Virus record (IMG/VR): IMGVR_UViG_3300046167_000554
Location: 62,001 to 126,000 of that record
Source of the DNA: a virus
DNA length: 64,000 nucleotides
Reading direction: 5' to 3' (one strand)
Made by a program: the position numbers and the translations under genes. The stretch's first letter is position 1, and each line of letters starts with the position of its first letter. Below the pieces are notes generated by a model that was not told where the DNA came from, did no database searches, and worked only from the letters and a program-made list of their open reading frames with translations. This document shows positions 1,965 through 6,607 of the stretch, one piece after another.

Positions 1965-2582
1965 ATGTCTCGACTCACCTTCAAAGAAATAGAATTACTT
2001 AAACCCGTAGAACTCCAAGAAAGACAGAAGGAGTCCTTAGACTGGTTTAAATCAAACCTCAAGACAATCAAGTCATATGCAAAACCCGATAAGGTTTTAA
2101 ACCAAGCTGGTGAAGACATCATACCTACAGAAATGATAGTAGGAGAGATGTACATGTTTATGTATGATGCAAAACACAAAGATACCCTTCCCTACTACGA
2201 CAGATTCCCTTTAATCTTTATGTTAGAGAGTTACAACAATGGATTCTTAGGACTTAACTTACACTATCTACACCCTAGATTTAGAGTAGGACTACTAGAG
2301 AACTTGTATGCATACTCTAATGATTTTGATGATGAGAGTGTTGCAGATGAGAACGTTAGACTAGGGTTAAGATATCAATCACTTGCAACTGCATCCAATC
2401 TAAGAGTTGCAAAACCATGTGTCAAACAATATCTATTTGAACACTTGGACTCTAAGATAGTTAAAGTGAATCCAAGTCAGTGGGACTTTGTTCCTTTATT
2501 ACCACTTTCTAAGTTTACAAGTGCAACAGGAAGTATAAATACTAACACAGTTTACAGGGAAACTAGAGAAAAAATCATATGA
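1965..2582 (+). CDS. Conserved T4-like virion-associated protein, function not assigned
   Basis: 205 residues. The recognisable core has MYMFMYDAKHKDTLPYYDRF, then PLIFMLESYNNGFLGLNLHY and LHPRFR, a block I associate with a conserved protein of marine T4-like phages in the head/baseplate neighbourhood. A basic helix stands at the N-terminus (ELQERQKESLDWFKSNLK). The gene is driven by a late promoter placed directly before its ATG, and its end overlaps the next gene by four bases (ATGA). Both point to a structural or assembly role. It could correspond to the gp2 DNA-end-protector position, but I cannot confirm that. Confidence 0.75.
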   Translation: MSRLTFKEIELLKPVELQERQKESLDWFKSNLKTIKSYAKPDKVLNQAGEDIIPTEMIVGEMYMFMYDAKHKDTLPYYDRFPLIFMLESYNNGFLGLNLHYLHPRFRVGLLENLYAYSNDFDDESVADENVRLGLRYQSLATASNLRVAKPCVKQYLFEHLDSKIVKVNPSQWDFVPLLPLSKFTSATGSINTNTVYRETREKII

Positions 2583-3328
2583 GTATACTAGACAGATTGA
2601 TTGGTCTTAAATCGGGAGATGAAAATCTTCAGATAGATAAATTAAAGTACAACTTTGACACGGGTGCAAGAGGAAACTATTTCATGGTTAACATCTTTGG
2701 GGTGGGCCACAAGGTATTGCACTTGAAGGTTGGAGATGTGAAACTGTACAAATTCCTTCTAGAGAATTGGAGGGCAAGTCAGTGGTCTTCATACGGCCCT
2801 GTTAGGAACATTCCAAACAATATAACAATGGATGGTCAAAGAGTTCCTATGACATTTTTATGTGACCAACACTTTGCAGATAAGTTTATATTAGATGCAT
2901 GGCAGTCCTATATCTATACTGGAACTGGAACACATGAAGACCAAGGTAATTCATTGAGACCTACATTTAGATATCAACAAGACTATGTTGGTAGAGTAGA
3001 GATTATCTCTATGAGAAAGGATGGTGCAGATGCAATGAAGACAACACTTCATAATGCATACCCAATAACATTAGGTGCTATGACACATAACACTGGTGCA
3101 AGAGATGAGATAATGAAATTTGAAGTAACATTCTCATTTGAAACATTTGATACTGAGTATGTAAATGCACCTAAATTATCCTTACTAAATAAAGGTAGAA
3201 GAGTATTAGATGCACTTCTAGAAACTGATAAATTGCGTGGAAGGTTTGGAAATAAAGTCCGAAGTTTAGACGCGAGATTGAAAAAATACGATGATAGATT
3301 GACTAGAATTTCAAATATCTTCGGTTAA
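2579..3328 (+). CDS. 54: Tail-tube-fold baseplate protein, probable tube initiator gp54
   Basis: 249 residues. The C-terminal half carries tube-fold hallmarks shared with gp19/gp54: YVGRVEIISMRKDGADAMKT, then a hydrophobic strand ITLGAMTHNTGARDEIMKFEV, then VTFSFETFDTEY (about 140-195). Such proteins sit on the hub and nucleate polymerisation of the gp19 tube. It is one of three tube-fold proteins in the window (with gp19 and the protein at 61268). Its place in front of gp26 fits a baseplate role. A tail completion protein of the same fold is the alternative. Confidence 0.6.
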   Translation: MSILDRLIGLKSGDENLQIDKLKYNFDTGARGNYFMVNIFGVGHKVLHLKVGDVKLYKFLLENWRASQWSSYGPVRNIPNNITMDGQRVPMTFLCDQHFADKFILDAWQSYIYTGTGTHEDQGNSLRPTFRYQQDYVGRVEIISMRKDGADAMKTTLHNAYPITLGAMTHNTGARDEIMKFEVTFSFETFDTEYVNAPKLSLLNKGRRVLDALLETDKLRGRFGNKVRSLDARLKKYDDRLTRISNIFG

Positions 3329-3343
3329 AATATGGAGTAAATT

Positions 3344-4045
3344 ATGGCATTACCGATACAATCGGCACCTACATTTTTTTGTGAGTTGCCCAGTGATGGT
3401 ACTGAAGTAAAATTTAGACCCTTCCTAGTGAAGGAACAAAGGAATCTTCTCCTAACTAAAGAAGACCCAAATCAAAAAGAGATTACAGAAAACATTATAA
3501 CTTTGTTGACTGCATGTACTTTTGAAAAATTGGATATATCAAAGTTATCTACTTTTGATGTTGAATACTTATTTCTACAAGTTAGGTCAAAGTCTGTTGG
3601 AGAAACAGTTAAACTGAATTTACCTTGTCAGAAAGATGATACACATCCTAAAGTTGAACTACCTATTAACCTTGCAGATGTTTCTGTAGATAAGAGTAAT
3701 ATGATTGACAATACAGTAATGATTAATGATGAAATTGGAATTGTTCTGAAATACCCAACTCTTATGGAGTCTATGAATATTTCAGAAAACGATGAATCAC
3801 AACTCTTGGATGTTATGAAAAAATGCATTGTTAGGATTTTTGATAATGAAGAAGTACATGAAATGATGGAGACACCCGATAGTGAAATAGAATCATTTCT
3901 AGACGGAATGACTATTGGTCAACTAGAAAAGGTTGGTGCATTCTTTACAGGAGCTCCTAATCTTTCACACACTGTAACTTACAAATGTCCTGAATGTGAA
4001 ACAGAACAGTCAATGACTATTAGGGGTCTAGAGAATTTTTTTTAA
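3344..4045 (+). CDS. 26: Baseplate hub protein gp26 / tail assembly chaperone-like
   Basis: 233 residues, matching the T4 gp26 family (T4 baseplate protein family). The N-terminus PIQSAPTFFCELPSDGTEV, then KFRPFLVKEQRNLL, is typical. The C-terminus carries a zinc-ribbon-like pair YKCPECETEQ (about 219-228). In T4 gp26 is needed to make the central hub. The gene ends in a run of eight T (4036-4043) directly before its TAA, and the -1 frame runs into the gp51-like reading frame that follows. A frameshifted fusion is therefore possible, like the chaperone pairs of other tailed phages that lie just before the tape measure. Confidence 0.88.
   Translation: MALPIQSAPTFFCELPSDGTEVKFRPFLVKEQRNLLLTKEDPNQKEITENIITLLTACTFEKLDISKLSTFDVEYLFLQVRSKSVGETVKLNLPCQKDDTHPKVELPINLADVSVDKSNMIDNTVMINDEIGIVLKYPTLMESMNISENDESQLLDVMKKCIVRIFDNEEVHEMMETPDSEIESFLDGMTIGQLEKVGAFFTGAPNLSHTVTYKCPECETEQSMTIRGLENFF
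4036..4043 (+). promoter_or_regulatory. Candidate -1 ribosomal frameshift site (T8 run at the end of gp26)
   Basis: The in-frame codons read AAT TTT TTT TAA, so U UUU UUU is a classical slippery heptamer placed immediately before the gp26 stop. Slipping back one base gives TTA ATA GCT CTT TCT CAT GAT AGC and then the ATG at 4066, with no stop, joining gp26 to the gp51-like frame. A short CATG-ATAG-CATG hairpin lies 14 bases downstream. Not proven. Confidence 0.6.
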
Positions 4046-4065
4046 TAGCTCTTTCTCATGATAGC

Positions 4066-4224
4066 ATGATTAATTACTATCAAACCAACTTTCAACTCAT
4101 GCAACACCATAAATACACATTGAGTGACTTAGACGGAATGATACCTTGGGAAAGAGAGATATATTCGACATTACTTATGAACTACTTGAAAGAGGAGAAA
4201 GACCGACTGAGTCAAAAGAAATAA
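4066..4224 (+). CDS. 51: gp51-like small hub assembly protein (possibly made as gp26-gp51 frameshift fusion)
   Basis: A 52-residue frame from ATG 4066 to TAA 4222-4224, containing YTLSDLDGMIPWEREIYSTL and LLMNYLKEEK. I recall this pattern (start of helix, D-L-D-x-MIP-(W/F)-ERE, then a Leu-rich helix) from gp51 hub-assembly proteins of marine T4-like phages. T4 gp51 itself is longer. There is no convincing ribosome site before ATG 4066. The frame continues upstream without a stop to the T8 run inside gp26, which favours expression as a -1 extension of gp26. Confidence 0.7.
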   Translation: MINYYQTNFQLMQHHKYTLSDLDGMIPWEREIYSTLLMNYLKEEKDRLSQKK

Positions 4225-4248: not shown

Positions 4249-4629
4249 ATGAGCGATATAGATAAATTCTCGGGAGACATGAGTCGTAACGAGGTTGAAA
4301 TAGACTTGAAGAAGTTCATGGCCATGGTATCAGAGATTGGCGAACTTAAACAAGAAATTTTTGAATTGACAAACGAAGACAGAAAGAATCCATGGCAGAA
4401 ATGGATTTTCGCTGCAAAAACAATTGATGCATGGAGAATTATACCAAGAGCATTCTTAGGTATATACATGTATCTTCTTTACTACGCAACATTTTGGTTC
4501 ATGGACTTAGCAGACCCAACACTAGAACAATCAGGTTTGATATCTGTATTAGTCGGTGCTGGTGCGGCATGGTTTGGACTATACACTTCAAGTGCAGCTA
4601 AAGAACATGGGGACACTAACCCTAACTAG
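4249..4629 (+). CDS. Two-helix membrane protein, holin-like candidate
   Basis: 126 residues. The acidic/helical N-terminal half (1-48) is followed by W-x-KWIFAAKTIDAWRIIPRA and two hydrophobic segments at about 67-87 (FLGIYMYLLYYATFWFMDLA) and 97-113 (ISVLVGAGAAWFGLY), then a short polar tail. The loop between them has DPTLEQ. I recall similar small membrane proteins in marine phages being called putative holins. It sits between the gp51-like gene and the tape measure. The long N-terminal domain is unusual for a holin, so another membrane role is possible. Confidence 0.65.
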   Translation: MSDIDKFSGDMSRNEVEIDLKKFMAMVSEIGELKQEIFELTNEDRKNPWQKWIFAAKTIDAWRIIPRAFLGIYMYLLYYATFWFMDLADPTLEQSGLISVLVGAGAAWFGLYTSSAAKEHGDTNPN

Positions 4630-4639
4630 GATTTAACAG

Positions 4640-6607
4640 ATGGCAGACGACCCACAAATACAAGGATTAGCTAAGACAATTTCAAGATTGTTGCTTGTTA
4701 ATGAAGCACAATTTGATGAACAACGTGCAGAGTTAAAGGAAGCTAAGAAACAGACTACCCAATTAGAAAGAACTGCTAACAAGATAAGTCAATCTAATGA
4801 AAAACAAATAAAGGAATTAGAAAAGAAACTTAAAGATGCTGAGGCTGCCAAAGCAGAAACAGTTATGCAAAAAATCCAAAAAGCATTTGGATTAGGTGGA
4901 CTAGGTGTCGATGAAGCAATCACCAAAAGTGGTAATCGTATTAAGAAGGGTGAACTAGGATTTGAAGCTGCATTAAATGCTTACAATAAAAGGATTCAAG
5001 ATGCATCAGATGACAGTGCAAAGGCGTACTCAAAGGTGGGTGAAGATTTAGCAAAGTCTAACAAAGAAGTTGCAGAAGGTTTTAAAACTGCATTTAGTAA
5101 TGTTGGAGATGACTTTAGTGAACTTTTTGGAAGTGCAATGGGGAGTCAGTTAAAAGATGCTGGTAAGAAAGTAAAGGCACTTATTAACATCCCATTTAAA
5201 CTGGTAAAAGGGATATTCCCATCATTCAAAGTACTTGGTGGTGTACTAAAAAATACTGGTCTTAGACTTAAGAAATTTGGGATGGGTTTAAAAAACATGT
5301 TCACTGGTGGTATACTAGGAAAACTAAAAATAGCACTCTTTGTTGGTGCTGGTATTTTAGGTTTTATTGCTATTAGAAAATTCATTAAGAGTGGTTTTAT
5401 GGAAGGTATCAAACTTATGATACATGCATTTGTACAAGGTTTTGATAGATTAAGAATTGCATTCCTTGAAGCTTTTGGTAAACAAGGTAAAGCAGATGAA
5501 ATTAGAAAGAAGACTATTGCACGAGAAATAGACGAACAAAAAAGATTAGGAAATATTAGTGAAGATGCAACAGGCAAGGATTTATATACTCAAGCTCTAG
5601 CTAATAATGAAGTAAGAGACTATATGGGTAATGATGAGACCTTCAATATGAGCTCAGATTTTGTCGGTAAGGAAGCTGGTCTTTCTGAAGAGGCTGTAGG
5701 GGGTATCAGAACTAATGCATCCGAAGGTGCATTAGATATCTATGGGACATTAAAGGGAAGAGAGGCAGCTGTAGATTACGATAGTCGAGAAATGACTTTC
5801 ATCCAAAAGGCAGATTTTGCCACAGGATTACAAGAACAGTATAATGTTAAGATAGGTTACTTAAATGCAGAGGGTAAACCAACTACTGCAGAAGAACTAG
5901 CAGCTGATTTAAATATGAATCTTGCAGAAGTAGTTACATTTGTCCAAGCAAATGACGATTTAACGATGGGTGATAATAATAAAATTTATAAGAAGGGAGA
6001 CTTTTTAATTAAAAAACAAGAAGATGGTAACTTTGCATTCCAAGGGGAAGCAGGATTTTTAAACTCTATGTATGAGAACACTGCAAGTTTTTTTGGTTCA
6101 GATAGTGACCAAACAGAAAGAATACCAATTGTTGGAGCTCCCGATGTTAAATCAACTATAGATACACAATATAGTCTATTAGATGAAGAACAACAAGAAC
6201 AATTAAGAAACACTATATCTCCACAAGGTGTTTCAGATACTGCTAGGTATGAAAAACTAAGAAGAAATGACCCCGAGTTCCTTGAAGCAGTTAAGGAAGA
6301 ATATGGTATAAACGCACACTTCTTGAGGAAGGATGCTAATGTAGACCAATTTGGAATGGTTGGTGATGTTCCTGTTACAAAATTGTTAATGTTAAACGAA
6401 CAATATTTAAGGGAGATGAAACTCTATAGAACACAGTTAGATGATTTCATGTCTCAAGGACAAGTTAAAGATTATGGTAATAGTAATATTAATACCATCA
6501 TGAATCAAGGTGGAAACGTTACTAATATTAGTTCAGGCACCCCAACTGCACAAGATGTAAACAATTTTTTCATGCCAACTCATGATAATGGTGTACCTAA
6601 GTATTAA
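4640..6607 (+). CDS. 29: Probable tail tape measure / hub protein gp29
   Basis: 655 residues, near the size of T4 gp29. The N-terminal coiled coil (about 20-75, Glu/Lys/Gln-rich heptads) is followed by an amphipathic basic stretch and a hydrophobic segment at about 228-247 (LKIALFVGAGILGFIAIRKF), the usual membrane-active part of tape measures. After that comes a soluble C-terminal domain (300-655) ending in a Gly/Asn-rich tail. Tape measures set tail length and exit into the host during DNA entry. Its place after gp26/gp51 and before gp48 is the T4 order. The stop overlaps the end of the opposing gene by 11 bases. Confidence 0.7.
   Translation: MADDPQIQGLAKTISRLLLVNEAQFDEQRAELKEAKKQTTQLERTANKISQSNEKQIKELEKKLKDAEAAKAETVMQKIQKAFGLGGLGVDEAITKSGNRIKKGELGFEAALNAYNKRIQDASDDSAKAYSKVGEDLAKSNKEVAEGFKTAFSNVGDDFSELFGSAMGSQLKDAGKKVKALINIPFKLVKGIFPSFKVLGGVLKNTGLRLKKFGMGLKNMFTGGILGKLKIALFVGAGILGFIAIRKFIKSGFMEGIKLMIHAFVQGFDRLRIAFLEAFGKQGKADEIRKKTIAREIDEQKRLGNISEDATGKDLYTQALANNEVRDYMGNDETFNMSSDFVGKEAGLSEEAVGGIRTNASEGALDIYGTLKGREAAVDYDSREMTFIQKADFATGLQEQYNVKIGYLNAEGKPTTAEELAADLNMNLAEVVTFVQANDDLTMGDNNKIYKKGDFLIKKQEDGNFAFQGEAGFLNSMYENTASFFGSDSDQTERIPIVGAPDVKSTIDTQYSLLDEEQQEQLRNTISPQGVSDTARYEKLRRNDPEFLEAVKEEYGINAHFLRKDANVDQFGMVGDVPVTKLLMLNEQYLREMKLYRTQLDDFMSQGQVKDYGNSNINTIMNQGGNVTNISSGTPTAQDVNNFFMPTHDNGVPKY

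Follow-up and report, generated by a model that had tools for sequence, protein, structure and literature searches.

A gp26-like gene with a predicted −1 frameshift into a gp51-like tail in a T4-like virus, and its conservation among relatives

The stretch of DNA analysed here (the window; 64,000 nucleotides) comes from a marine T4-like phage and spans positions 62001-126000 of a record 153,514 bases long (IMG/VR IMGVR_UViG_3300046167_000554). All positions are those of the window, and the features of the locus are listed below.

2579..3328, + strand: upstream tail tube protein gene, 249 aa (phrog_45, E=3.3e-14)
3344..4045, + strand: gp26-like gene, putative short chaperone form (TAC-N), 233 aa (PF12322 and phrog_150 matches)
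3344..4224, + strand: predicted frameshift product, long form (TAC-NC), 293 aa (233 + 60), with a T4 gp51-like layout
4022..4026, + strand: AGGGG, a Shine-Dalgarno-like purine run and possible stimulator, 9 nt 5′ of the heptamer
4036..4042, + strand: slippery heptamer T_TTT_TTT in the gp26 frame (X_XXY_YYZ register)
4042..4224, + strand: −1 frame tail (TAC-C, gp51-like), 60 aa, LIALSHDSMINYYQTNF... (phrog_634 and C-terminus of phrog_150; aligns collinearly with the C-terminal end of T4 gp51)
4043..4045, + strand: 0-frame stop TAA, flush with the heptamer (read from the sequence)
4066..4224, + strand: mechanical ORF of 52 aa from an ATG, the inner part of the tail
4249-4629: 126-aa ORF (phrog_10198, unknown function) separating the tail from the tape measure candidate
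4640..6607, + strand: putative tape measure protein, 655 aa (from position and hydrophobicity/sequence character)

The gp26-like protein matches the profiles PF12322 (E=2.8e-58) and phrog_150 (E=8.9e-63), and its AlphaFold2 model has a mean pLDDT of 91.5. It is the only PF12322 match in the 153.5-kb record, which may be incomplete. A DNA end protector gene (phrog_429) also lies upstream of it. On the downstream side, the 126-aa ORF contains two hydrophobic segments, while the 655-aa protein has a coiled-coil-like start and a single strongly hydrophobic segment at about residue 231; profile searches of the latter against Pfam-type and PHROG families returned no family match.

The 3′ end of the gp26-like gene (4034-4045) reads AAT TTT TTT TAA in the gp26 frame. 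From 4042 onward, the −1 frame (LIALSHDSMINYYQTNFQ...) is open for 60 codons up to a stop that ends at 4224, and the gp51-like ORF starting at ATG 4066 shares this frame. After a slip, the full −1 reading would be LIALSHDSMINYYQTNFQLMQHHKYTLSDLDGMIPWEREIYSTLLMNYLKEEKDRLSQKK, terminating at 4224, and the gp26-gp51 fusion would contain the predicted junction peptide ...GLENFFLIALSHD.... The 60-aa tail matches phrog_634 (E=1e-25), the gp51 profile annotated as “baseplate hub assembly catalyst”. A second match (E=2e-5) is to positions 235-281 of phrog_150, at the C-terminal end of the gp26 family, so that the phrog_150 profile already includes fused proteins. No Shine-Dalgarno sequence was found before ATG 4066 (duplex energy +0.6 kcal/mol), and this ATG is probably not an independent start. 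The original prediction had described a T run adjoining the gp26 stop with an open −1 frame, together with a 52-residue gp51-like ORF that lacks a clear ribosome site, and was accurate in both respects. Its placing of the site just before the tape measure gene holds only approximately, because the 126-aa ORF separates the tail from the candidate gene.

The comparison drew on 106 gp26 loci, taken from phage genomes and viral contigs, among which 63 representatives fall below 70% identity. An in-frame T_TTT_TT(C/T/A) heptamer no more than about nine codons from the gp26 stop, with a gp51-like tail in the −1 frame, was present at 103 of the 106 loci; the T run and −1 phase, on which the original prediction turned, are thus conserved in relatives. 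Heptamer-bearing loci span marine contigs, isolated cyanophages and phages of Vibrio, Desulfovibrio, Stenotrophomonas and Delftia, and the three loci that lack the heptamer are those of T4, Vibrio phage K476 and Dickeya phage Ds25CZ. Relatives sought with Desulfovibrio and Vibrio proteins as queries were not found, nor were any found among genome contigs.

All 63 representatives retain the heptamer, where codon usage predicts 25.0 (summed log10P of -27 if the representatives were independent, which strictly they are not), and other Phe-Phe or Phe-Leu sites of the same genes are slippery in only 7 of 120 cases. Across these representatives, the two Phe codons follow a codon that stands for Ser, Asn, Asp, Ala, Thr or Gly but always ends in T, and the first Phe codon is invariably TTT. 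The second Phe is replaced by Leu (TTA) in six of them (L060, L064, L084, L091, L102 and L106), with the heptamer retained. T_TTT_TTA is also the heptamer of the well-known retroviral gag-pol frameshift site. In the GC-rich Delftia and Stenotrophomonas phages, TTT accounts for only 15-17% of Phe codons, yet GAT TTT TTC is present. By these counts, the conservation of heptamer and phase is far beyond chance, and that of the heptamer is a matter of selection on nucleotides, beyond constraint at the protein level.

A purine-GG, Shine-Dalgarno-like stretch lying 9-10 nt 5′ of the heptamer is conserved across the 63 representatives, and the group mean anti-Shine-Dalgarno duplex energy is −6.6 kcal/mol as against −4.9 kcal/mol for synonymous shuffles; the window’s own run (−5.9 vs. 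−5.75 kcal/mol) is indistinguishable from the synonymous expectation. Downstream hairpins with z below −2, starting about 5-9 nt after the heptamer, were predicted in 29 of the 63 relatives, and a search of the window for a downstream structural stimulator found none that was convincing (z about −0.3 to −0.5). The hairpin stems differ in sequence between relatives (L015 2210-2290, L040, L041, L060, L106 and others). Hairpins with such differing stems suggest that many marine T4-like phages have maintained a frameshift stimulator downstream of the heptamer.

The stop codon lies flush with the heptamer in 16 of the 63 representatives. Fifteen of these sites, that of the window included, form one group (support 89/79), the sixteenth falls outside it, and the tree needs two changes. 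Hairpin strength did not differ significantly between flush-stop and spaced sites (P=0.17). For the flush-stop subtype, a stop codon in the A site would be the obvious candidate stimulator and, because no clear downstream structure is predicted in the window, it may supply the pause there. We also raise, as a tentative and somewhat doubtful possibility, that in a marine T4-like clade the site moved flush to the stop (U_UUU_UUU_UAA/UAG), so that a “shifty stop” competition between release factor and slippage, and not a hairpin, sets the ratio of the two products. If this were true, the short/long ratio would depend on host release-factor levels.

T4 served as a natural control. It has two PF12322 genes, gp26 and gp51. 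The T4 gp26 gene, which encodes the short form, reads GAG TTC TTT, which is not slippery, and the gp26 genes of T4-type phages have this or similar codons there and no heptamer. T4 gp51 (249 aa) has the PF12322 domain at residues 1-201 (E=7.7e-55) followed by the tail in the same frame, and its alignment with the predicted fusion product of the window runs collinearly through the junction (T4 DVFKLLVNPDEIFTFYQ vs. window NFFLIALSHDSMINYYQ). A single PF12322 gene was found in the window record and in 10 of 10 other non-T4-type records checked, and two separate copies in T4 and two other T4-type records. Since T4 has a short gp26 and a fused gp51 and the frameshift-type phages are single-copy, the products of the latter would be a short and a long chaperone, like G/GT. 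T4, the textbook two-gene case, may derive by duplication and fusion. In a further T4-type contig (L112 3300-3743), the gp51 copy is split in two by a frame change near “FKNP/PIEII” (743 instead of 744 bases); the copy may be damaged, or the break may stem from an error in sequencing.

We consider it highly probable (roughly 90%) that a single gene at this locus gives rise to a pair of tail assembly chaperones via −1 ribosomal frameshifting. Most ribosomes would terminate at the gp26 stop codon (TAA, 4043) and yield the short form, TAC-N, while a minority would slip back one base on U_UUU_UUU (4036-4042) and yield TAC-NC, the 293-residue fusion of gp26 and gp51. If the pair works as lambda G/GT does, many short forms would coat the tape measure protein, a few long forms would recruit tail tube subunits by means of their extra C-terminal domain, and both would be absent from the finished tail. 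The signal in the sequence, its phase and conservation, the relatedness of the two parts to T4 gp26 and gp51 and the pattern of copy number are all observed; for the window phage itself, we infer the slippage, the slippage rate and the chaperone role alike. The −1 fusion of gp26 to a gp51-like tail, which was the core of the original prediction, is supported by the conserved heptamer, phase and frame, by the nucleotide constraint and by the T4 gp51 fusion. Counting against it are the negative results in the window for a downstream structure and for a Shine-Dalgarno-like run stronger than expected, the insignificant fold match to 2OB9, the T8 run, on which transcription could also slip, and the four phages described below that keep the −1 tail without a canonical heptamer.

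Frameshifting is reportedly conserved in several T4-like groups, with T4 using genes 26 and 51, according to Vladimirov, Gautam and Davidson, and Xu, Hendrix and Duda are said to have described the tail assembly chaperone frameshift of siphophages in 2004. The lambda heptamer is G_GGA_AAG, unlike the U_UUU_UUN of the window family. Genes 26 and 51 have been identified as the tail assembly chaperones of T4-like phages (Vladimirov, Gautam and Davidson, 2022, Virology 566:9-15; cited in PMC10885494 and PMC12846349), and the passages of later papers that draw on this work mention one short gene plus one fused long gene in some T4-like phages (PMC10885494) and polyT frameshift signals in T4-like TAC-N genes (PMC12846349). 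The proposed link between gp26/gp51 and the G/GT chaperone system is therefore right but not new. As the idea has been in print since 2022, what the present analysis contributes is strong confirmation obtained independently, a data set of large size and a flush-stop subtype that is distinct and testable. The window shares with T4 26/51 the PF12322 family, the short/long logic and the C-terminal tail; T4, however, has two separate genes, whereas the window has one gene plus a −1 frame, with the heptamer directly against the stop.

In lambda G/GT-type systems, the short gene lies between those for tail tube and tape measure, and a −1 frameshift close to its 3′ end gives rise to short and long forms (PMC5009743). 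The window’s predicted frameshift site is also near the end of the short gene, with a tail tube gene upstream, but there is no detectable sequence similarity and an extra ORF precedes the tape-measure candidate. Fold comparison of gp26 and T4-like gp51 against the PDB gave no significant match; for the gp26 model, the HK97 tail assembly chaperone gp13 (2OB9) ranked 27th and was not significant (E=2.8, probability 0.18, TM (target) 0.41), and it was not counted as evidence. A search for solved structures matching the family by sequence found none. Homology to lambda-type chaperones is thus not established by comparison of the models’ folds alone. The cyanophages (Kyanoviridae, such as S-SM1, P-SSM4 and S-PM2) have homologous gp26/gp51 in −1 phase with U_UUU_UUC, but differ in having one codon between heptamer and stop, an often strong downstream hairpin and an annotation as two genes. 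In the Vandenendeviridae/Andersonviridae (phage Adele), the short chaperone gene ends in a poly-T site at which a −1 frameshift is conserved, although the motif there is GTTTTT and differs from the window heptamer (PMC12846349).

Several other explanations could account for parts of this arrangement. Two proteins could be made separately, with the gp51-like ORF translated from ATG 4066 or by coupling to gp26 termination, the T run being incidental. Public cyanophage annotations do give gp51 its own CDS, and stop and start overlap in several distant phages. This explanation nevertheless has to contend with the lack of a Shine-Dalgarno sequence before ATG 4066 and with the relatives’ tails, the first 15 codons of which contain no ATG in 34 of 63 cases and none of ATG, GTG or TTG in 22. 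Codon-position entropy in the stretch before the first window ATG is 1.22/0.90/1.63 (positions 1/2/3), and by this measure the tail is constrained as a protein directly from the heptamer onward. With conservation upstream of the ATG, a heptamer kept beyond codon usage and a T4 gp51 that is itself a fusion, we regard separate translation as very improbable. Slippage by RNA polymerase is another alternative: one U added on T8 would yield the identical protein (NFF-LIALSH) from some mRNAs without any ribosomal slip, and the T8 run is present in the window and the flush-stop relatives. Most relatives, however, have six T’s followed by C or A (TTTTTTC or TTTTTTA in 41 of 63 heptamers), the conserved codon register suits ribosomal slippage on a heptamer, and the hairpins seen downstream in 29 of the 63 are typical of ribosomal stimulators; we would give transcriptional slippage little credence. 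Eight-base homopolymers are also prone to error, and a T lost in sequencing or assembly could have split a gene that is truly one fused ORF. The same T8 and phase, however, are found in four near-identical contigs from different metagenomes (L001, L002, L003 and L006) and in the 62%-identical L004 and L005, and relatives that include isolated, finished cyanophage genomes have non-homopolymer heptamers in the same arrangement. Sequencing error as the cause of the −1 arrangement was rejected, as independent contigs agree, and its probability is close to nil.

The remaining alternative accepts the frameshift but takes gp26 and gp26-51 to be baseplate hub assembly factors instead of tape-measure chaperones. 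In the classical T4 literature, gp26 and gp51 are counted among the hub assembly chaperones (PMC3004832), and T4 and several relatives have their tape measure gene in a non-adjacent position. Against this stand the short/long pair with a common N-domain, the position of the window gene between the tail tube gene and a tape-measure-like gene, and the published identification of 26/51 as T4-like chaperones, and we think an exclusive hub role unlikely. The two roles may coincide if the hub holds the tape measure.

As judged from its sequence, the window is an additional member of the T4-like frameshift chaperones, within the flush-stop subclade. On the reading of a frameshift-made chaperone pair, a picture drawn from sequence alone, gp26/gp51 of T4-like phages would form a single chaperone system, encoded by frameshifting in most of the divergent relatives. 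The “gp51” CDS annotated in many cyanophages and marine phages is then probably a wrongly delimited half of a single product.

A −1 gp51-like tail without the canonical heptamer was also observed in three Ackermannviridae-type phages and Vibrio phage K476 (L016 2235-2250, L113 1438-1450, L114 1441-1453 and L012 2214-2226). Two of the three are classified as such, and Klebsiella phage Madison was placed with them by similarity. The genes in these four phages end in ATT TTC ATT TAA or CTT TTT GCG TAA, and two of them (L113 and L114) have a tail that carries no annotation and lacks an early ATG. Since these phages keep the −1 tail without the heptamer, another route can hold the tail in phase.
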